Assembly (NCBI GenBank): GCA_020830965.2
Contig: JACCFC020000007.1
Location: 69,633-133,632 of the forward strand
Direction of reading: 5' to 3'
From: Neisseriaceae bacterium TC5R-5
GTDB lineage: Bacteria; Pseudomonadota; Gammaproteobacteria; Burkholderiales; Chromobacteriaceae
Length of the DNA stretch: 64,000 bases
Positions within the stretch are counted from its first letter, which is position 1. Every line of letters starts with the position of its first letter. The notes under the pieces are model-generated. The model was given only the letters and a program-made list of their open reading frames with translations. It was not told where the DNA came from and searched no databases. The translations under genes and the position numbers were made by a program. Shown piece after piece: positions 3,949 through 15,911 of this stretch.

Positions 3949-6156
3949 ATGACGGTTAATCACAGTAAGCGTAAATTTTTGCAAAGTTCTGCCGGTACGG
4001 TTGCTGCCTTGGCAGCAATGCAAATGTTCCCGCCCAGTATTCAAAAAGCGCTGGCCATTGCCGCGAATAATAAAACGGGCACGATTAATGATGTTGAGCA
4101 TGTTGTGATCTTCATGCAGGAGAACCGTTCTTTCGATAATTATTTTGGCACGCTGCCTGGTGTACGTGGTTTTGGGGATCGCTTTACCATTCCGCTGGCA
4201 AATGGCTTGAATGTCTGGCAGCAGCGTGATGGTAACGGCAATGTGATTCTGCCCTATCGATTGGATCAGACCCAGGGTAATGCGCAACGGATTGCCGGCA
4301 CACCGCACTCGTGGACCGACGCTCGTGACGCCTGGAATAAGGGCCGCATGGCACAGTGGCCTAAGTATAAACAGCCTCAGTCCATGGCCTATTTTGGCGA
4401 GCAGGAGCTGCCGTTTCAGTTTGCTCTGGCCAATGCCTTTACCATTTGTGATGCTTATTACTGCTCCTTGCATGGTGGCACGAATAGTAATCGCCTGTTT
4501 CACATCAGCGGCACCAATGGGGCCACAACCGCTACCGGCAAGGTGGTTGTCAATAATGTGTTTGACGACTTAGAGACGACCACTAATCTGAACTTTGGGT
4601 ATGACTGGACAACTTATCCAGAGCGGCTGGAAGCGAAAGGGGTGTCCTGGAAGACTTATCAGAACATGCCGGATAATTTTACAGATAATCCTTTGATGGG
4701 TTTCAAGCAGTATCGCGCCGCCAATATAGCCTCGGGCAAACCGGTTTACCATGATCTCAATGCTCTCCAAAATCCAGCCTACGACCCCGCCAGCGATCAG
4801 GTCGGCCTGTATAAGGGGATTGCCAATACCATGCCTGATGGTGGCTTTTTAGCCAGTTTCAAAGCGGATGTACTCGCTGGAACCCTGCCACAGGTAAGCT
4901 GGATTATTGCCCCGGCAACCTATTCGGAACATACCGGCCCCTCCAGCCCGGTACAGGGTGCTTGGTACACCCAGGAGATTCTGGATGCGCTAACGGCTAA
5001 TCCGGAGGTGTGGAGCAAAACGGTGCTGTTTATTAATTTTGATGAAAATGATGGTTTTTTTGATCATCTGCCACCGCCCTGCGCACCGTCACTGGATGAC
5101 AATAATCAGCTGATTGGCAAGTCCACCATCAGCAATCAGGATTTGTCTTACGAGTATTACACTCACCCGATAGTCGATGGCGCCACCATGCCTCCACAGG
5201 ACAAAGACTGCTATGGCCCTGGCCCACGGGTGCCGATGTATATTATTTCGCCCTGGAGCCGTGGCGGTTGGGTTAATTCGCAGAACTTTGATCACACTTC
5301 GGTATTACGTTTCCTGGAAGCCCGCTTTGGGATTGCGGAGGAAAATATCAGCCCCTATCGCCGCGCGGTGTTTGGCGATCTGACCAGCGCATTCAATTTT
5401 GCCAACCCCAATTTTGAAACACTACCCACCTTGGCTGGCCGCAGCAGCAAACAGCAGGCGGATGCCTTACGCCAGGCGCAAGAGACTTTATTAAAAATCC
5501 CGGTACCACCCGCACAATTGTTCCCGGTGCAAGCAAGCGGCACCAAGCCATCACGCGCACTACCTTATGAGCTGCATACCAGCGCCAGAACCGATGTGGC
5601 CGCACGTAGCGTCAATCTGATTTTTGCCAATAGCGGCAGCGCTGCTGCGGTGTTTCATGTCTACGACAAATTGCATCTTGATCGGGTACCACGTCGTTAT
5701 GTGGTGGAAGCGGGCAAGCAACTGAATGATGTCTGGAGTGCCAATGGTGCGGATGCCGGACGTTATGATTTATGGGTGCTCGGCCCCAATGGCTTCCATC
5801 GTAGCTTCATCGGGGACTTAAGCCAGCAAACAGCACAGAACCATGTTGATCCGGAAATACGCGTTTGCTACGACATCACCAATGGCAATGTGCAAATTAC
5901 TCTGATGAATGCCGGTAGCCAGCCTTGTGTGTTGAATGTCGCCGCCAAAGCCTACCGTAGTGACGGGCCGTGGAGTGCCACCGTTGCCGCCGGCGGACAA
6001 CAGGAACTGAGCTGGCAGTTGGCCGCTAGTGGTAGCTGGTACGATTTTGAGGTGAGTTGCCCTAGCCTGCCCGCCTACCGCCGTCGTTTTGCCGGACGCG
6101 TTGAAACGGGAGCACATGGTATTACTGATCCGGCCATGGCTGTGCTGAGTTATTAA
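3949..6156 (+). CDS. Phospholipase C, phosphocholine-specific type, Tat-exported
   Basis: 735 residues, the usual length of bacterial PlcH/PlcN-type phospholipases C, which cleave phosphatidylcholine or sphingomyelin to phosphocholine plus diacylglycerol or ceramide. The N-terminus is a Tat-like signal with Lys-Arg in place of Arg-Arg (SKRKFLQSS), followed by an alanine-rich hydrophobic segment to about residue 38. The phosphoesterase domain begins with FMQENRSFDNYFG (about 55-67) and includes DENDGFFDH (about 365) and FDHTSVLRFLEARFG (about 447). The last ~200 residues match the two C-terminal beta-rich domains of the family. AAAGG lies nine bases before the ATG. Secretion and preference for choline lipids are inferred from the family. 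Confidence 0.9.
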   Translation: MTVNHSKRKFLQSSAGTVAALAAMQMFPPSIQKALAIAANNKTGTINDVEHVVIFMQENRSFDNYFGTLPGVRGFGDRFTIPLANGLNVWQQRDGNGNVILPYRLDQTQGNAQRIAGTPHSWTDARDAWNKGRMAQWPKYKQPQSMAYFGEQELPFQFALANAFTICDAYYCSLHGGTNSNRLFHISGTNGATTATGKVVVNNVFDDLETTTNLNFGYDWTTYPERLEAKGVSWKTYQNMPDNFTDNPLMGFKQYRAANIASGKPVYHDLNALQNPAYDPASDQVGLYKGIANTMPDGGFLASFKADVLAGTLPQVSWIIAPATYSEHTGPSSPVQGAWYTQEILDALTANPEVWSKTVLFINFDENDGFFDHLPPPCAPSLDDNNQLIGKSTISNQDLSYEYYTHPIVDGATMPPQDKDCYGPGPRVPMYIISPWSRGGWVNSQNFDHTSVLRFLEARFGIAEENISPYRRAVFGDLTSAFNFANPNFETLPTLAGRSSKQQADALRQAQETLLKIPVPPAQLFPVQASGTKPSRALPYELHTSARTDVAARSVNLIFANSGSAAAVFHVYDKLHLDRVPRRYVVEAGKQLNDVWSANGADAGRYDLWVLGPNGFHRSFIGDLSQQTAQNHVDPEIRVCYDITNGNVQITLMNAGSQPCVLNVAAKAYRSDGPWSATVAAGGQQELSWQLAASGSWYDFEVSCPSLPAYRRRFAGRVETGAHGITDPAMAVLSY

Positions 6157-6249: not shown

Positions 6250-7383
6250 CTAATGCCCACCCTCGGCTTCAACATCAGCATATTTCTGCGCAATATCCTG
6301 AAAAGCCTGCTCTACCTGTAAAAAAGCTTCGACCACGTCGGGATCAAAATGCGAGCCCTTATTTTTGACAATAAATTCGCGCGCCTCGGCGTGCGTCATC
6401 GCCGCCTTGTAAACACGCTTGCTGATCAATGCATCATAAACGTCGGCTAATGCCATCAGACGTCCCGAAATAGGAATGTCATCTCCTTTCAGGCCATCCG
6501 GATAACCTTTGCCATCCCATTTTTCATGGTGTGTGCTGGCGATTTCTTTGGCAAAGCTGAGAAATTCCACTTCCAGCCCCAGTTGCCGCTCTGCCGCGAC
6601 AATCGCTTCCTTGCCCAGTCGGGCATGGCTTTTCATGATTTCAAATTCATCCTCGGTCAAGCGCCCCGGTTTGAGCAGGATATTATCGGGCACGCCCACC
6701 TTGCCGATATCGTGCAGCGGTGCCGACTTGACCATGAATTCAATATTGCGCGGGCTAAGATAGGCCTGAAAGCGTGGGTGGGCTTGCAGATATTCGGCCA
6801 GTACCTTGACATAGTATTGGGTGCGGCGAATGTGATTGCCGGTTTCGTTATCGCGTGTTTCTGCCAACGATGCCAAGGCCCAGATCGCCACATCCTGCAC
6901 CATTTCGGTTTCGCGGGTACGGCGTACTACTTCTTGCTCCAGATAATCGTTCTGGTTTTTCAGGAAGTCGCGTGCCACTTTCAGTTCCAGATGATTACGT
7001 ACCCGCGCCAGCACAATCGGCGGGCTGATCGGTTTGTGCACATAGTCCACAGCCCCCAGCTCCAGCCCCAGAGTTTCGTCTTCCACTTCATTTTTGGCGG
7101 TGAGAAAAATCACCGGAATATCACGACTAGCCGGGTTTTGCCGCAGGCGGCGCAGCACTTCATAGCCATCCATCTCTGGCATCATCACATCCAGCAGAAT
7201 CAGATCAGGCGGGTTGCTTTCAATAATCTGCAAAGCACGTGGCCCGCCTGGTGCCACTTTAACCCGATACAAACCATGGAGCAGACTACTCATCAAGGAC
7301 AAATTATCCGGGGTATCGTCCACCACAAGGATAGTCTGCTTGTCGTTCTGCTTATTAACATTATCCATCTGCGTCACCGTCAC
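6250..7383 (-). CDS. Response regulator with HD-GYP domain
   Basis: 377 residues. An N-terminal receiver domain (about 17-135) has the acidic pair Asp22/Asp23, the phospho-acceptor Asp65 ([13 protein letters not shown]) and Lys117. A helical linker leads to an HD-GYP domain (about 165-350) with His224-Asp225 in HDIGKVGV and the full motif [11 protein letters not shown] (Gly293-Tyr-Pro). HD-GYP proteins of the RpfG type hydrolyse cyclic di-GMP, so phosphorylation probably controls c-di-GMP turnover. The start GTG overlaps the kinase stop by four bases (GTGA), so the two are co-translated; an ATG 15 bases later is an alternative. It is the last gene of the stressosome operon and its likely output. 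Confidence 0.9.
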
Positions 7384-10300
7384 TTACCGGGCAAGCTCTG
7401 TTTGACCGCCTGTAATGCCTGCAAGGCATCACTGAAGCGATATTGCTGCAAAGCCTGCTCAATTGATTTGGCGGCCGAACCCAAGGCAGAGCGCAATAAA
7501 GCTGCCGCCCCGGAAAAGACCTCAACCGCCTCAGCATCATCATCTGCCAGGAGTTCCTCTAGCCTGTCCAATAGCTGTCGTAGCTGCACCCAATCTATAT
7601 CTGCCTGACTGCGTAATGCTTCTTCTTCGTCGGGCAGTGCGCGTTGCAAAGCAGCCAGTAAGCGCTGCAATTCTTGCTGAGCATTAGCCAACAGTGCCTG
7701 CATACTGCTCAAGCTCTCACCGGCTTGCGCACTTTTTTCCATTTGTGCCGCCAGTGCCTGTAACTCGCCCGCCCCTATCGTGCCAGCCACCCCTTTGAGC
7801 GTATGGGCAATACGTATCGCGGTGTTTTGCTCATTGCCCTGCAAGGCGCCCTCGAAATCGCTGAGTGCGCTGGCTTGCCCGCTGATAAAGCGTCGCAGCA
7901 AACCCTCGTAAGACGCGCGCTTGCCTAATACCCGCCGTAGCGCGCCAGTCACATCCAGCCCGGTAATTTGTCGCAAAGGATCATCACCATGCTGGCTAGG
8001 CTCTGCTGCCGGGGGCGCACTGACCAGCTGAGGAGCAGCTGGCTGCTGTATTTTGGGCGCCCAATGCTTGAGGGCGGCAAATAGTCGCACCGGGTCTATC
8101 GGTTTGGCGATATGGTCATTCATGCCAGCGTCCAGGCAACGCTCGCGATCACCCGACATGGTGTTGGCAGTCATTGCCAGAATGGGCAGGCTGGCTGTCG
8201 CCGGGAGGGCTCGCAATTGACGGGTGGCCTCCAGGCCATCCATCACCGGCATTTGCATGTCCATCAGAATCAGATCAAATTTTTCCAGTTTGGCAAAACG
8301 TACCGCTTCATCGCCGTTATTCGCGACCTTGACCTTGATATTGGCGGCTTCCAGCAACTCGGTAGCCACTTGCTGATTCAGTTCATTATCTTCAGCCAGT
8401 AGCACCGACAAGCCATGAAGGGCGGCAACATCGGCCAGCGGATCCTCATTATCACTTTCCTGAGCGAACGGCTGTTCCTCCTCGCCCCCCAGCAGGCGCA
8501 TAGCAGCATCAAACAGTACTGAGGCACTGACTGGCTTGACCAGGGTCATTTCAATACCGGCGGATTCCGCCTCGCGGAAAACTTCTTCACGACCATAACC
8601 TGTCACCATCACCCGATGCGGCCGTAAGGCCTCCGGGCGCAGTGCTAGACGACGGGCGACTTCCATGCCATCCATATGTGGCATACGCCAGTCAAAGAAC
8701 ACCACTTCGAACGGGTCTTGCTCCTCTTCTGCCTGCTCTACCATTTCCATCGCCTTGAGTCCGGCATTGGCTTCATCAACCCGAAAACTCATGCTGCGCA
8801 GTTGCTCGGCCAGAATGTGGCGGGCTGTTTCGCTGTCGTCCACCACCAGTACACGGCGATTACGTAAATCGATACGCGGTACTTTCGCTGGCCGCACACG
8901 CCCTTTACCCAAGCGAGCAGTAAACCAGAAGGTACTGCCTTTGCCGGGTTCACTATCTACCCCGACTTCACCGCCCATCAAGCCAGCCAGTTTTTTGGAA
9001 ATGGCCAGACCCAGGCCGGTGCCACCGTATTTGCGCGAAGTCGAGGTGTCCGCCTGCTGGAAGGATTGGAACAATTTACTCTTTTGCTCCAGAGTCATAC
9101 CGATGCCGGTATCCTGTACTTCAAAGTACAGCAACATATCATCCTGCTTGTCTTCACGGCATTGCACCCGCACCGTGACATCACCCTGCTCGGTAAACTT
9201 AACCGCATTATTGGCGTAGTTAATCAAGATCTGCCCCAGACGTAAGGGGTCACCGACCAGGCTGCGGTTCAGTTGCGGGTCAACATCAAAGACCAACTCC
9301 AGTCCTTTGGCCTCGGTTTTTTCACAAACCAGCGTGGCCAGATTGTCTAACACCTTATCCAGATCAAACTCGATCTGCTCAAGGTCCAGTTTGCCGGCTT
9401 CAATCTTGGAGAAATCGAGAATATCGTTGATGATGCCGAGCAAATGTTTGGCCGAACTTTGAATTTTGCCCAGATAGTCCTGCTGCTTAGGGTCCAGTAC
9501 GGTACGTAAGGCAAGGTGAGACATACCGATGATGGCGTTCATCGGGGTGCGGATTTCGTGGCTCATATTGGCCAGAAAATCGCTCTTGGCGCGAGTGGCA
9601 CTTTCAGCCTGTTCCATCGCATCCTTCAAGCGCTGTTCTGCCTGTTTACGCGAGCTGATATCACGCAAAAACAGCGTACCGGTGCGCTCCCCTTCCAGGT
9701 CAACAATGGTGAGCCCCACTTCAACCGGCAGTTCTACCCCATCGGCACGACGCAGCTGCAACTCCCAGAAATTACCTTCTAATACCGAAAGGTCTGCGGC
9801 AGCCAAGCCATGCGCCAGAATGCTAGGCAGCGGCCCTTCGCCACTTAGCGAAATCAAGTCCTGCAGCTTGGCCGACAAGGCCTCGTTCTCTTCCAGACTC
9901 AACACCGCTAGGGCCGTACGATTGATATGGCTGAGTTGGCCATGCGCATCCAGAATCGCAATCCCCACTGGCGCACCGGCAATGATGGAGTGCGATAACT
10001 GCTGGCTATGATGTAAAGCCGCAGTACGGCGTACGATCTCCTCTTCCAGCCCCGCCTGATAGCGCGATAGCTCCTGATTACTCGCCATCAGTTCCGCCAG
10101 CAGTTGCTCGCGGCTTTTTTCATTGAGAATCGCCAGAATAGTATCGTCATCAGTTTCGCCCATGCCGGGCGCGTCGATCTGAATGCACGAATGTCCCTGA
10201 CGATACACTAGGCTCCATAAAGGATCGAGCAATGCAATATTCAGTTGGCGCGTACTTTCCGGAATCAACAGCAAGGTATCCCAGTCCACCAGCAACTGGC

Positions 10301-10472
10301 AGCTATTCACCCCCTGCCGCTGCAAGTGCTGCAATAAGGAAAACAGCGTCACCGCATGGCGTTCCAGCGCGCCGGCACCCAGCCACGACAGCGACATCAG
10401 TTTCAATAATTTGCTGCGAGCGGTATAGACACCCTCTTCGCCAGTCAAAGACAAACTAATCTGTTCGCTCAT
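7380..10472 (-). CDS. Hybrid sensor histidine kinase (PAS-HisKA-HATPase-REC-REC-HPt)
   Basis: About 1030 residues. The chosen ATG overlaps the rsbX stop (ATGA) and has GGGAG upstream; an ATG nine bases earlier is also possible. Order: an N-terminal ~110-residue region of unclear family, a coiled coil (about 118-155), a PAS domain (about 160-275), HisKA with the H-box [14 protein letters not shown] (His305), a HATPase domain with DTGIGM and [12 protein letters not shown], two receiver domains (phospho-Asp in [11 protein letters not shown] and [13 protein letters not shown]) and a C-terminal HPt with HTLKG. No membrane segment is visible, so it is cytosolic. It should pass phosphate to the receiver of the HD-GYP protein. 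Its place behind rsbRSTX suggests that RsbT acts on it in place of RsbU. Confidence 0.92.
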
Positions 10473-11077
10473 GGCTCCCATCTCACTGCCACGCAGCTGG
10501 CATCATCATGCCATTTTGCATAGTCGTTAATGAGTTGATTGCTTAGCCGTGCCAAAGGCAGATGCCGCCAACTCTGCAACACACCGGCAGGAAAATGTTC
10601 CGGCACCCCATCGGTGGTTAACAATAACAAGGCGCCGGGCGCCAATTGCAAGCACTGCTCGCTTAAAGTGGGCAACACATAACCCACGGTACCCGGCTGG
10701 CCGGTTAACACCTGCTCACTAGCCTGCAACACCCGTAACAGGGTATTGCCCACGCTGACACAACGTAAACCACCATCCTTGTCCAGCTGTACCAGGCACA
10801 CGGCCGCCCCACGGCTACCTTTAAACTGCTGATGCATTGCCTGCATACAGGCGGGCAATGGCTGCCAAGCTTGTTGCTGCAACCAAGCCTCCATCTGCCT
10901 GGCGAGGACATGCGCTTCTTCACCATGCCCCAGCACATCCAGCATCGCCAAGAACCAGCCCTGCTCGGTCTGCCGGATCAATTGACCATCACCAGAGACC
11001 CGCTCACCAAAATAAGGGCGGGTACAGATTCCATGCTCCAATGCTTTTCCTAACGGCGCAGCCATTTGCGTATGCAT
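10469..11077 (-). CDS. rsbX: RsbX-type PP2C phosphatase
   Basis: 202 residues with the PP2C/SpoIIE phosphatase metal-binding pattern: SGDG near residue 30, MLDVLGHG (about 45-52), [11 protein letters not shown] and the terminal [10 protein letters not shown]. RsbX removes phosphate from RsbR and RsbS and so resets the stressosome. The first ATG (11077) overlaps the end of rsbT by 28 bases; a second ATG at 11065 would overlap by 16. AGGA lies just before the first. The tight overlap on both sides points to translational coupling within the operon. Confidence 0.88.
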
Positions 11078-11499
11078 ATCCTGGTACCCTTACCCGGCTG
11101 GCTATCGATACTGAACTCGTCCACCAGCCGTCGGGTGCCTGGCAAGCCCAGCCCCAAAGTACCGCGACTGCTATAGTGTTCACTCAGTGCCAACGCCACA
11201 TCGGCCATGCCCGGCCCCTGATCAATCGCCCACAACTCAAAACCTGATCGGCCCGCCCCCTCACATTGTCCCCACGACACATCACCCCGACCGGCGTATT
11301 TGACGATATTCATCGCCAACTCCGACGCCACCGTGGAGAGCTGTGTCGCCATCACAACATTAAAGCCCAGATGCTGCGCCGCATGCTGCACCTGCAATAC
11401 CAGTAAACAAACGTCACTCTCATGACAGATAGACACGCTTTCAAAAGCCCGACTGCCATGCTCCGACAATTTGGAGGAGGGCATATTGGGCAAGCTCAT
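11050..11499 (-). CDS. rsbT: RsbT-type serine/threonine kinase (anti-sigma-factor ATPase fold)
   Basis: 149 residues of the GHKL ATPase family: N-box ELAMNIVKYA, then AIDQGPGM, then GLGLPGTRRLVDEF. In known stressosomes RsbT is held by RsbR/RsbS, phosphorylates them on stress, leaves the complex and activates a partner. The start ATG overlaps the rsbS stop by four bases (ATGA). The order rsbR-rsbS-rsbT-rsbX is the standard one, which supports this name over RsbW. Confidence 0.9.
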   Translation of the reverse strand: MSLPNMPSSKLSEHGSRAFESVSICHESDVCLLVLQVQHAAQHLGFNVVMATQLSTVASELAMNIVKYAGRGDVSWGQCEGAGRSGFELWAIDQGPGMADVALALSEHYSSRGTLGLGLPGTRRLVDEFSIDSQPGKGTRICIRKWLRR

Positions 11500-11867
11500 T
11501 TGCTACCTATCTTCAGGGTCAACGCCTGTTCCAGCGAAATCGCTCCACGAAATGCCGATAAATCAGCCCCAACCTGCGATAAGCCTTGAATCACACTCGG
11601 GCGCAAGCCTACCAACACCGTGCCAGCCCCCATCAAGGTAATGGTTCGTTTCAGGTCAATCAAAGCCTGATAAGCATCCAAATCCATCACCCCCACCTCG
11701 GAGACATCCAGCAGCACACGCCGAATCGTCGTACCCGCGATACGCTCCAACAGGCGATTCTGCATTTGGCGCACCAGTACCGGGCGCAACTCGGTCTGCA
11801 CACAAGCGAGCAAAGCATCGCCGATTTGCGACAGGCTGATTCTGGCTTCCTGCGTTTCTTCAAACAT
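11496..11867 (-). CDS. rsbS: RsbS-type STAS-domain scaffold protein
   Basis: 123 residues forming a single STAS domain; RsbS and RsbR together build the stressosome core. The segment LLDVSEVGVMDLDAY aligns by eye with the region holding the phosphorylated serine of Bacillus RsbS (Ser59, within D-S), but here the position appears to be Leu63. If the alignment is right, this RsbS cannot be phosphorylated at the usual site. It lies 15 bases after rsbR and overlaps rsbT by four bases. Confidence 0.85.
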   Translation of the reverse strand: MFEETQEARISLSQIGDALLACVQTELRPVLVRQMQNRLLERIAGTTIRRVLLDVSEVGVMDLDAYQALIDLKRTITLMGAGTVLVGLRPSVIQGLSQVGADLSAFRGAISLEQALTLKIGSK

Positions 11868-11882
11868 CCGCGCCTCCTCACA

Positions 11883-12767
11883 CTAAAGCTGGCGAATTCC
11901 CAGCCCCACTAGGCGGAACGCCTCTTCCAACGCATCACGCAAAGTAGCAAAGGTAGAAATTTCTTCGGTATCAATTCCCAGATGCACAATGGTCTGCGCA
12001 ATCGCCGGCGACAAGCCCGACACCAAACTCTCACACCCCATCAAGCGGGTGGCCTTAGTAATTTTGATCAGGTGATTAGCTACGGCCGAATCCACCACCG
12101 CCACCCCAGAAATATCCATGATGAACACCCGCGAACGCGTAGCAGCAATCTTGCTCAAGATGCCTTCCATAATGCTTTGTGCTCGTAGTGAGTCAATAAT
12201 GCCGACAATGGGTAACAGCAGGATCTCTTCCCAGATCATCGTCACCGGCGTAGACATCTCCATCATCGCCCGACTCTGCTCACTGACACGCTCGTTCACC
12301 AAACTGGAATAGGTTTCCACCACCAAGGTGGTATCCAGTTGCAACAGCTTGCTCAACGATAACAACTGCTGCGATGCCGACTCACGGCTACCGCTTTTAA
12401 TCTGCGCGGCAAACTGCACATAGCAAAAATTCATCGCCGCAAAGTAGCTCGACAAACTCATGCCAATGCGGGCATGCGTCTCCCCCAGCTTGAAACGCTC
12501 TGCCACATAATCGTCCGACACCTCTGCCGCAAAAAAGCTGCGCCAGTAGTCTGACTGCGACTGGCGCGCACTTTCCATAATGCCGGGCCGGGCAAACAGG
12601 CTGCCAAACTCTGGCCTAGAAGGCAGCCACTGATAAAAGTGCTCCATCATTTCGTCCAGCGCAGGTAGCACTAAGGCTCCCACCTCACGAACACGCTGCA
12701 AATCAGGCTCCGTAATAGAAAAGCTGCCTAATAAGCTATCGATATCGGTAAAGCTGACAGATCCCAT
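11883..12767 (-). CDS. rsbR: RsbR with haem-type globin sensor and STAS domain
   Basis: 294 residues from the ATG at 12767, preferred because AGAGG lies six bases upstream; the ATG at 12773 touches that site. The N-terminal ~155 residues form a globin-coupled-sensor fold with FKLGETHARIGMSLSSYF, in which His98 sits where the proximal haem ligand of such sensors is found. Bacillus RsbR lacks that haem. A helical linker leads to a C-terminal STAS domain with MDISGVAVVDSAVANHL, where Ser227 takes the place of the first phospho-Thr of RsbR; the AQT threonine near 259 may be the second. Likely an oxygen- or redox-gas-sensing stressosome subunit. Confidence 0.9.
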   Translation of the reverse strand: MGSVSFTDIDSLLGSFSITEPDLQRVREVGALVLPALDEMMEHFYQWLPSRPEFGSLFARPGIMESARQSQSDYWRSFFAAEVSDDYVAERFKLGETHARIGMSLSSYFAAMNFCYVQFAAQIKSGSRESASQQLLSLSKLLQLDTTLVVETYSSLVNERVSEQSRAMMEMSTPVTMIWEEILLLPIVGIIDSLRAQSIMEGILSKIAATRSRVFIMDISGVAVVDSAVANHLIKITKATRLMGCESLVSGLSPAIAQTIVHLGIDTEEISTFATLRDALEEAFRLVGLGIRQL

Positions 12768-12826
12768 CCACATCCTCTCTCACGCCGCTAGCCCTGCCAT
12801 GAAAATAAAATGAGTACCTATTGCTA

Positions 12827-13320: not shown

Positions 13321-13629
13321 ATGTCAACGCAGTTTAAAGACGATGCCGTACAACAGGCTTCCAATATAAAAGAAGTTCCTCCACCGATGTATAAGGTCTT
13401 GTTATTAAACGATGATTTTACACCGATGGATTTTGTGATTCATGTCCTTCAACAGTTCTTCTATATGAGCAACGAGAAGGCCACGCAAATCATGTTACAA
13501 GTCCACACGCAAGGCCGCGGCGTATGTGGAATTTATACCAAAGACGTGGCAGCAACCAAAGTCGAGCAGGTGTCGCAATTTTCACGTGCACACCAGCATC
13601 CGCTTCAGTGCGTAATGGAGGAAAACTGA
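13321..13629 (+). CDS. clpS: ClpS adaptor for ClpAP, N-end rule
   Basis: 102 residues. The core has [17 protein letters not shown] with Asn30, Asp31 and Asp32, and His62 in VHTQGRG. These correspond to the residues that bind the N-terminal destabilising amino acid of N-end-rule substrates. The family hands such substrates to ClpAP and tunes ClpA. The ribosome-binding site is weak (CGAAAG). The stop overlaps the clpA start (TGATG), as is common for this pair. Confidence 0.95.
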
Positions 13630-15911
13630 TGATTGCCCAGGAGCTTGAAGTAAGCCTACACATGGCGTTCATGGACGCTCGGCGCAAGCGCCACGAGTTC
13701 ATCAGCGTGGAGCATTTATTACTTGCTATGACCGACAACCCATCGGCCACGGAAGTACTACGCGCATGCGGAGCCAATATCGATCAGCTGAAAAGATTGC
13801 TGAGCGACTTTATCGACGAACACACTCCTACCGTACCCGGTGAGGTGGACGTTGAAACCCAACCGACACTGGGTTTTCAGCGAGTGATACAGCGTGCCAT
13901 TTTGCACGTACAGTCATCCGGTAAAAAAGAAGTGACCGGAGCGAATATTCTTGTGGCCATTTTTGGTGAAAAAGACTCGCATGCTGTGTACTACCTGCAT
14001 CAGCAGGGTATTTCACGGCTGGACGTGGTCAACTTTATCTCGCATGGCATCACCAAACAACGCTCGGCACAGCAACCACCAGAGCCACGGGACAGCCATA
14101 GCAGCGAAGGGGAAGGTGACGAGCAACCTAGCGGGCCAGGCGGCGCGCTGGAGAACTACACTCAGAACCTGAACCAGCAGGCGCGTGAAGGCAAGATCGA
14201 CCCACTGATTGGCCGTGAGTCGGAGCTGGAACGCACGGTACAGATTCTATGTCGTCGCCGTAAAAACAATCCGCTACTAGTTGGTGAGGCCGGGGTAGGC
14301 AAAACAGCTATCGCTGAAGGGCTGGCCTTACGTATCGTTGCCGGTGATGTACCGGAAATTTTGGCCAAATCCACTGTTTACGCACTGGATATGGGTGCCT
14401 TGCTGGCTGGAACCAAATATCGCGGCGATTTTGAACAGCGTCTGAAGGCCGTGATCAAGCAATTGGCTGAAGACAGCAATGCCATTCTGTTTATCGACGA
14501 GATTCATACGCTGATCGGTGCCGGCGCTGCCTCCGGCGGCACCTTAGATGCCTCTAATCTGCTCAAGCCGGCGTTATCCAATGGCAGTATGCGCTGTATC
14601 GGTGCCACGACTTACACCGAGTACCGTACCATTTTTGAAAAAGACAACGCCCTGTCACGACGCTTCCAGAAAATCGATGTCAACGAACCGACCGTAGAAC
14701 AGACGGTAGAAATTCTGAAAGGCCTGAAAGCACGTTTTGAAGCGCATCATGGCGTGAAATACACCCAGGCGGCCTTATCCACTGCCGCAGAACTGTCGGC
14801 ACGTTTTATTAATGACCGTCATCTGCCGGATAAAGCCATTGACGTGATTGACGAAGCTGGTGCCGCACAGAAAATTCTGCCGAAATCCAAGCAGAAAAAA
14901 GTTATCAACAAAAACGAAATCGAAGAAATCGTGGCCAAGATTGCCCGTATTCCACCGAAAACCGTTTCCAATGATGACAAGAATGTGCTGAAAAATCTGG
15001 AGCGTAATCTGAAGAATGTCGTGTTTGGTCAGGAAAAAGCCATAGAAGGCTTGGCCAGCGCCATCAAGATGACACGTTCTGGCTTGGGTAACCCGCAAAA
15101 ACCGATCGGCTCCTTCCTGTTCTCAGGGCCAACCGGGGTGGGCAAAACCGAAGTGGCTCGCCAGTTGGCCTATATTCTGGGAGTAGAGCTGATCCGCTTT
15201 GATATGTCCGAGTATATGGAACGACACGCAGTGTCACGACTGATTGGTGCGCCCCCCGGCTATGTCGGCTTTGAGCAGGGTGGTCAGTTAACCGAGGCCA
15301 TCAACAAGCACCCTTACTCTGTCGTGCTGCTGGATGAAATCGAAAAAGCACATCCGGACATCTACAACATTCTGTTGCAGGTGATGGATCATGGCACCTT
15401 GACCGATAACAACGGACGCAAGGCCGACTTCCGGAATGTGGTGATCATCATGACCACCAATGCTGGAGCAGAGGCACTTTCCAAACCTAGTTTGGGCTTT
15501 ACCCAAACCAAGGTGGCGGGTGATGAGATGGGCGATATCAAAAAGCTGTTCAGCCCAGAATTTCGCAACCGCCTGGATGCCATCATCCCGTTCCGCATGC
15601 TGGACGAACAGATCATCATGCAGGTTGTCGATAAGTTCCTGATGCAGCTAGAGCAGCAACTGGCAGAGAAACGTGTCGATGTACACTTTACCGACGAGCT
15701 GCGTCAATTCTTGGCGAAAAACGGCTTCGACCCGGTCATGGGTGCCCGCCCGATGGCACGTTTGATTCAGGACACGCTGCGTAAGGCGCTGGCAGATGAA
15801 TTGTTATTCGGCAAATTGGTTTCTGGCGGCGAGGTGACCGTGACAGTGATAGACGATAAGGTCGAATTACAGTTTAAGCACAACGAAGCGCTAGCGATCG
15901 AACCTATCTAG
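13629..15911 (+). CDS. clpA: ClpA, AAA+ unfoldase of the ClpAP protease
   Basis: 760 residues, near the E. coli length. The start at 13629 overlaps the clpS stop by one base, with GGAGG just upstream. An N-terminal Clp repeat domain (1-~145) is followed by D1 with Walker [14 protein letters not shown] and Walker [15 protein letters not shown], then D2 with [14 protein letters not shown] and [13 protein letters not shown], and a C-terminal sensor domain with GARPMARLI. There is no long middle domain, which separates it from ClpB. Adjacent clpS fits. clpP is not in the window. Confidence 0.96.

Follow-up and report, generated by a model that had tools for sequence, protein, structure and literature searches.

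The stressosome operon

We analysed a 64,000-nucleotide stretch of the genome of Neisseriaceae bacterium TC5R-5 (contig JACCFC020000007.1, positions 69,633 to 133,632; hereafter the window), in which six genes on the minus strand form a real and intact operon encoding a globin-RsbR, RsbS, RsbT, RsbX, a hybrid histidine kinase and a REC-HD-GYP regulator. Neighbouring genes overlap, except for a gap of 15 bases between rsbR and rsbS, and the domain matches are clear, which bears out the original prediction of a stressosome, a hybrid kinase and a REC-HD-GYP output in one operon. This architecture and its cyclic di-GMP (c-di-GMP) output are already known from Vibrio; the new part is the N-terminal domain of the kinase, which that prediction had overlooked and which is the best candidate for a physical link to the stressosome. 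The features are as follows (E-values from Pfam).

11883..12773, minus strand: rsbR, protoglobin (8e-24, heme-type sensor) and STAS (5e-15), with the proximal-His-type H100
11496..11867, minus strand: rsbS, STAS scaffold (STAS 6e-10), with Leu63 at the B. subtilis Ser59 position (alignment)
11050..11499, minus strand: rsbT, GHKL switch kinase (HATPase_c_2 2e-8), ATP motifs intact
10469..11077, minus strand: rsbX, single-domain PP2C/SpoIIE phosphatase (SpoIIE 2e-12)
7380..10481, minus strand: hybrid histidine kinase of 1033 residues, probable start codon ATG at 10472 (MSEQ...), shared with the congeners
10068..10472, minus strand: putative degenerate RsbT-like receiver domain of the kinase (residues 4-138), uncatalogued, from profile tests
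10068..10124, minus strand: conserved linker (kinase residues 120-138), leading into the signalling helix
9642..9989, minus strand: PAS domain of the kinase, approximate ends, match below the Pfam cut-off
8910..9590, minus strand: HisKA (4e-23) and HATPase_c (2e-28) of the kinase
8070..8849, minus strand: two REC domains of the kinase (D597, D741; REC x2 5e-50), approximate start
7644..7901, minus strand: HPt domain of the kinase (H893; HPt 2e-11)
6250..7383, minus strand: REC-HD-GYP output regulator (D65; REC 7e-28, HD_5 1e-32), GTG start

Position 12767, where the original prediction had rsbR begin, is an in-frame alternative to the start called at 12773. The STAS protein RsbS, the GHKL kinase RsbT with its ATP motifs and the PP2C phosphatase RsbX are present in that order. 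Also present are RsbR His100, RsbT E60/N64/D93, kinase H308, REC D597 and D741, HPt H893, regulator D65 and, in its HD-GYP domain, E180/H184/H224/D225/H253/H285/H286/D314; these are presumably the heme-proximal histidine, the ATP-site, the phosphorelay and the HD-GYP positions.

The N-terminal domain of the kinase

Kinase residues 1-160 have no Pfam match, and in an 11-row receiver alignment the row of the window kinase matched none of the Pfam and NCBIfam models at E <= 1; the other rows gave single-row matches only (best E 0.028 and 0.014). The domain ends in a conserved linker, xEKSRxELLxELxxxNxEL. The N-box, DxGxG and GLG ATP motifs are absent (alignment, by eye), and it was therefore not filed as an RsbT kinase. 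Profile comparisons, mostly by way of intermediate sequences and not from the window kinase by itself, suggest that it is a strongly degenerate RsbT-like domain devoid of ATP-binding motifs.

The comparisons drew on 80 of at least 511 loci with rsbR, rsbS and rsbT genes (RST loci) confirmed from a genome scan (no Vibrio among the 80), together with loci from other genomes. At least 22 kinases are led by an RsbT-like domain (20 from the genome scan, 2 from other genomes; E 1e-43 to 1e-4), and a more degenerate group bears the linker of the window kinase: L038/G506, L051, L066 (Spirochaetales), L068 (Myxococcales), L100 (Methylocystis), L161 (Flammeovirga) and L193/G1083. The head of the L068 domain matched the RsbT hidden Markov model (HMM) at E=1e-6, with 0 of 2,152 decoys above it. 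An HMM of RsbT-kinase N-termini and four intermediates, which holds no window, Vibrio, Flammeovirga or Methylocystis sequence, matched the window domain at E=0.017 and its congeners at 0.40-0.46 (comparison set with one mis-cut row, L117). Two of 1,893 decoys, L036 and L111, ranked above the window and were judged to be family members; four target proteins had been removed from this decoy set beforehand, and one of its members, the L100 protein, afterwards proved to be a receiver.

A profile of seven receivers (window, three congeners, Vibrio, Flammeovirga and Methylocystis), which includes no RsbT, gave hhalign probabilities of 85.3% against RsbT, 92.6% against RsbT-kinase N-termini and 98.1% against five intermediates, and matched the RsbT profile over columns 2-82. 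The intermediates reached RsbT at 97.1% over the whole domain, and the window with its three congeners reached the five intermediates at 92.6% over nearly the full length (96.0% with Vibrio added). Eight unrelated family profiles, a set without globin and HD-GYP profiles (too few rows), stayed at or below 0.6% with three window-type sets. With the intermediates seven of the eight stayed at or below 0.8%, and the histidine-kinase ATPase, itself a distant GHKL relative, reached 9.8%. When 7,773 open reading frames (ORFs) were searched with the seven-sequence HMM, the 14 matches listed comprised one member (Methylocystis), four intermediates (E 6e-5, 7e-5, 0.011 and 0.27) and nine RsbT-family proteins (RsbT, RsbT-RsbX or RsbT-kinase; E 0.011-0.27), among them the L043 RsbT, matched through model positions 6-82, outside the linker (E 0.011). 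The 11-row profile found 15 matches in 13 of 399 genomes of the order at E <= 0.01: two members, one new full-length receiver (G1083), nine RsbT-led kinases (seven beside RsbT genes, two beside an RsbR-like gene) and three without such a neighbour. Against solved structures the same profile had one match (E 0.076), taken as chance. A 10-residue stretch considered as the ATP G1 box was rejected, as it lies just before the linker in the family alignment (by eye).

Kinases with an intact RsbT-like N-terminus (L039, L088, L117) share with the window the succession of RST genes and an RsbT-led histidine kinase; their RsbT similarity is clear (E 6e-38 to 2e-39) and their RsbX is fused to a further copy of RsbT, whereas in the window the domain is degenerate and RsbX stands alone. 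Some stressosome operons (L039, L036, L194, L195 and others) carry three RsbT copies, one free, one fused to RsbX and one fused to a histidine kinase. Our literature search found no paper on RsbT-led stressosome kinases, intact or degenerate. A class of pseudo-RsbT receivers was not described in the literature searched, which left out Pane-Farre 2005 and 2017 and Quin 2012, and priority is thus unproven.

Distribution of the receiver domain and its outputs

Twelve receiver loci were compared (window, L155, L156, L157, L159, L038, L193, L051, L066, L068, L100 and L160/161), with four named phyla among them. Behind the receiver domain lie histidine kinases in 9 of the 12, PP2C and GHKL domains in 2 and an adenylate/guanylate cyclase in 1. 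The domain comes after RsbX or RsbT-RsbX genes in 12/12 loci, a position that is partly a matter of ascertainment, since most loci were found by reading behind RST genes; in the 399 genomes of the order, all 3 full-length receiver matches lie in RST-type loci. A REC-HD-GYP gene follows the kinase in the window, its congeners and Vibrio, whereas in L051 it is preceded by an HPt gene; L038 has an HD-GYP gene 5' of rsbR, and none was seen in the stretch of L066 that was read.

Several loci deserve mention in their own right. The HD-GYP gene of L038 (2623-4191) lies just upstream of a globin rsbR and may be an output gene placed on the opposite flank of the module. In Methylocystis (L100:9932-10954) a globin stressosome is followed by a receiver joined to a nucleotide cyclase (Guanylate_cyc 7e-55), possibly a route from O2 to cyclic nucleotides. 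In L068 (9983-11677, Myxococcales) and L161 (1-1620, Flammeovirga) the receiver precedes PP2C and an RsbW-like GHKL domain, and in Flammeovirga an anti-sigma antagonist gene comes next.

In a tree built from 73 RsbT rows, those of the 12 receiver loci make up one side of a branch, found in 86% of bootstrap trees and not well supported (85/64). Three output classes, assigned to 39 of the 73 rows (RsbU_N by motif) with 34 rows left without a class, require two changes, the minimum, and the RsbU_N rows are not themselves one side of a branch. Phyla, by comparison, require 22 changes (62 rows) against a minimum of 16, with a phylum label on only 4 of the 12 receiver rows.

The RsbS phospho-serine

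The canonical phospho-serine position of RsbS (B. subtilis Ser59) is Leu63 in the window (11679-11681). This serine is lost in 10 of the 12 receiver loci (kept in L066 and L068) as against 0 of 67 others (Fisher 5e-11), and in 7 of 9 when the window genus is collapsed (Fisher 2e-8); both values overstate the association, because the receiver rows cluster and represent few independent events, and L068, L160 and L193 were entered in the count by eye. The serine is kept in nine globin loci (L068 and eight whose output is of another kind or unassigned); it is therefore the receiver, not the globin, that the loss accompanies. The sections of Jia 2016 (PMC4976288) on V. brasiliensis report that the site is not conserved there, and the canonical phospho-serine is thus not defining for this branch of stressosomes. 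In B. subtilis S59A is described as weakening signalling without abolishing it (PMC3944199, in the part concerned), which provides a precedent for Ser59-independent switching.

The HD-GYP output enzyme

The regulator has the HD, the HHExxDGxGYP and other metal ligands of HD-GYP c-di-GMP phosphodiesterases. The closest solved HD-GYP structure is 4r8z (E 2e-63), a c-di-GMP phosphodiesterase that we take to be PA4781 of P. aeruginosa, a type of REC-HD-GYP protein with the same domains as the window regulator. The passages of PMC3774798 on PA4781 state that REC phosphorylation is required for activity and unmasks the HD-GYP site. At the position occupied by Glu in the 4r8z chain, the window regulator carries the consensus Ala (A318); in PA4781 a Glu at that site is reported to lower the affinity for c-di-GMP and an Ala to favour it (PMC3774798, residue correspondence presumed). 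With its relay and HD-GYP residues intact, the sequence suggests that the output regulator is a c-di-GMP phosphodiesterase.

Vibrio and other known systems

The original prediction set the locus apart from Vibrio, where the output regulator is reported, as it put it, to have a different domain. This contrast proved wrong. Searching plasmid records with RsbR by tblastn gave some match in 7 Vibrio records, three of which align over 98% of the query with 53% identity. Vibrio sp. THAF191c (L159) has the same six genes, with a globin RsbR (53% identical to that of the window), a kinase of 1057 residues with the same domain order (N-terminal domain-PAS-HisKA-HATPase-REC-REC-HPt) and a REC-HD-GYP regulator that reads SHQEKWDGSGYP where the window regulator has its own 12-residue stretch. 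Its HD-GYP protein (L159:17425-18564) has HQE in place of the HHE of the motif, so that catalysis may differ. A REC-bearing gene of 334 residues follows the Vibrio operon (L159:18756-19757) and may resemble the CheY-like neighbour that Jia 2016 mentions in the passage concerned. VvRsbRSTX-VvD1-VvD2 of V. vulnificus has the same layout as far as PMC10014275 and PMC9237108 describe it (D1 and D2 compared by description alone), and the downstream pair is described there as most likely degrading c-di-GMP (PMC10014275 and PMC10436020, in the parts concerned). Deletion of the V. vulnificus kinase gave smaller motility zones in the section of PMC10014275 on motility, and the survey in Heinz 2022 (PMC9237108) names Vibrio, Chromobacterium and Herbaspirillum as c-di-GMP output types.

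The stressosome of Moorella thermoacetica with its GGDEF cyclase is also wired to c-di-GMP (as cited in PMC12143880); there the receiver is RsbU_N and the output makes c-di-GMP, whereas the window output is predicted to degrade it. With the RsbRST-RsbU-SigB system of B. subtilis the window shares the R, S and T core and the X phosphatase; it differs in the Leu at the RsbS Ser59 position, in a receiver that is not RsbU_N and in that no RsbU, stand-alone RsbW or SigB was found.

Genome content and conservation

That absence, which the original prediction had claimed for the route through RsbU/V/W and SigB, is upheld by SpoIIE, HATPase_c_2 and SigB/F/G profile searches of the genome itself (3.53 Mb, 148 contigs, listed as 100% complete). 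The one SpoIIE match is RsbX. Among six HATPase_c_2 matches the sole short open frame is RsbT, the other five being long frames, 4/5 with a histidine-kinase-like H-box, and 0 of 5 matches to the SigB/F/G model passed the cut-off. Five STAS matches comprise RsbR, RsbS and three other short proteins, which occur without an RsbW, and the SigB partner-switching set (RsbU, RsbV/RsbW, SigB) was not found. Seven GGDEF and five HD_5 matches, the window's included, indicate that c-di-GMP signalling exists in this genome.

Among the matches listed from 61 genomes of the family, those covering the kinase N-terminus came from the window genome and from 3 of 18 other congeners; all 3 carry the complete six-gene operon at 65-69% kinase identity, which argues against a chance assembly. 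Among 369 genomes of the class, the window alone matched RsbR over its full length at E <= 1e-15; 22 further genomes matched RsbR in part (with one exception, through its STAS-bearing C-terminal portion), and the kinase domain of the window matched only itself. Since the matches are so scattered across family and class, the operon is sporadic. A search for RsbT relatives in viral contigs found none.

The operon is flanked at 13321-15911 by a short gene of 102 residues, which reads like ClpS, and a gene of 795 residues, which may be its ClpA partner, and at 3949-6156 by a secreted phosphoesterase/phospholipase-C-like gene (by eye).

The proposed reading and its alternatives

We read the locus as a Vibrio-type oxygen-sensing stressosome connected by a phosphorelay to a c-di-GMP phosphodiesterase, with a pseudo-RsbT domain as its receiver; from the sequences compared, we would give this a probability of about 0.6. 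Several results weigh against it, in addition to the ascertainment and the limits of the tree and of the serine counts given above. The link between the window and RsbT runs through the intermediates and the shared linker. Tested directly against the RsbT HMM, the window had 442 of 2,152 decoys above it; hhalign gave the window and its congeners 0.7% against RsbT (0.5% with Vibrio added); and when the HMM was built from the window genus by itself, its best match among the 7,773 ORFs was an unrelated one (E 0.51), with L068 and L050 matched weakly. Without the Methylocystis row, which was first noticed with a model containing RsbT-kinase domains, the six remaining window-type sequences reached RsbT at 13.5% and RsbT-kinase N-termini at 86.6% (same comparison set, with the mis-cut L117 row). 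The interaction tests of Heinz 2022 (PMC9237108) saw no contact between VvRsbT and VvD1, though they showed none between VvRsbT and RsbS or RsbR singly either. On the output side, PA4781 is slow on c-di-GMP and prefers pGpG, and its authors doubt a primarily phosphodiesterase role (PMC3774798, in the part on activity).

The lack of binding led the authors of Heinz 2022 (PMC9237108), in the passage concerned, to propose a transient phosphorylation, and RsbT might indeed phosphorylate the kinase transiently on Ser/Thr, the N-terminal domain serving only as its substrate or for dimerisation. The kinase residues of RsbT are present in the window; such a mechanism leaves unexplained, however, both the RsbT-like look of the domain and the occurrence of the same linker before three different outputs, and we regard it as unlikely. 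Still less probable is an autonomous kinase, whose PAS or N-terminal domain would sense another signal and which would merely be co-transcribed with the stressosome. The PAS domain could take another input and co-location alone proves no contact, but the genes overlap, their order is the same in three congeners and Vibrio, the output class clusters on the RsbT tree, and V. vulnificus mutants of either half are described as having similar phenotypes, milder for the upstream one (PMC10014275, phenotype section). It is also improbable, to a slightly greater degree, that the domain is unrelated to RsbT and that the shared linker alone drives the matches: when window-type and intermediate sequences were compared early on, they matched in the linker only (columns 110-136), and the head regions of the domain score weakly by themselves, but the seven-sequence profile reaches true RsbT outside the linker, in L043 and over the RsbT columns cited above. 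We can practically dismiss a four-helix receiver of the RsbU_N type, which would take up released RsbT in the way that RsbU and the Moorella cyclase do. Such receivers do come after RST genes elsewhere (L037, L056, L058, L092; assigned by motif), but a profile comparison with seven RsbU_N-like N-termini gave a probability of 0.1-0.2%, no Pfam model matched the kinase N-terminus, and the analysis in Heinz 2022 (PMC9237108) found no RsbU_N in the V. vulnificus proteins either.

A possible mechanism

A domain derived from RsbT that has lost ATP binding would most likely bind the partners of RsbT, that is, the STAS core of RsbR and RsbS, or pair with released RsbT. We lean towards docking on the STAS core, which is possible though still doubtful, over pairing with RsbT, which seems rather unlikely; docking and switching by the receiver are both what we infer from sequence. 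Megadalton assembly and O2-dependent RsbT activity are known for Vibrio proteins only (PMC9237108 and PMC4976288, in the parts concerned), and in V. brasiliensis the activity of RsbT towards RsbR and RsbS is reported to rise when the RsbR heme is unliganded (Jia 2016, PMC4976288, activity section). By analogy, loss of O2 from heme-RsbR would let RsbT phosphorylate RsbR faster, and the STAS core or RsbT would then change its hold on the receiver domain. The conserved linker might relay this change along the signalling helix to the kinase, from which phosphate would pass from H308 through REC and HPt H893 to D65 of the regulator. Phosphorylation of D65 would unmask the HD-GYP site, c-di-GMP would fall and motility would be favoured.

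One might speculate further, with the balance tipping slightly against us, that besides RsbU_N and the intact RsbT-kinase fusions stressosomes have a third, unrecognised type of receiver. This would be a pseudo-RsbT domain with a conserved linker, set in different phyla in front of histidine kinases, PP2C phosphatases or nucleotide cyclases; it would dock on the RsbR/RsbS core (or RsbT) and switch its output without release by phosphorylation of RsbS Ser59. The model put forward in the relevant part of PMC12143880 has interchangeable N-terminal domains acting by way of coiled-coil linkers on PP2C, GGDEF and kinase outputs, and the receiver with its linker would fit this scheme as a further module, one that goes unmentioned in that part.

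In V. vulnificus, the work of Heinz 2022 (PMC9237108, in the parts cited) leaves the hand-over from Gram-negative stressosomes to such outputs with neither an RsbU_N nor a contact between RsbT and the kinase. If our reading is true, the receiver would supply the coupling step still missing from the picture of the Vibrio stressosome, and its presence with a fixed linker in three output types makes the question of coupling directly testable by binding and deletion. It would also provide a sequence signature for new stressosome outputs, which has already brought out the Methylocystis cyclase and the G1083 kinase, and would show how a single sensor complex comes to be wired to different outputs, be it c-di-GMP, partner switching or cyclic nucleotides.

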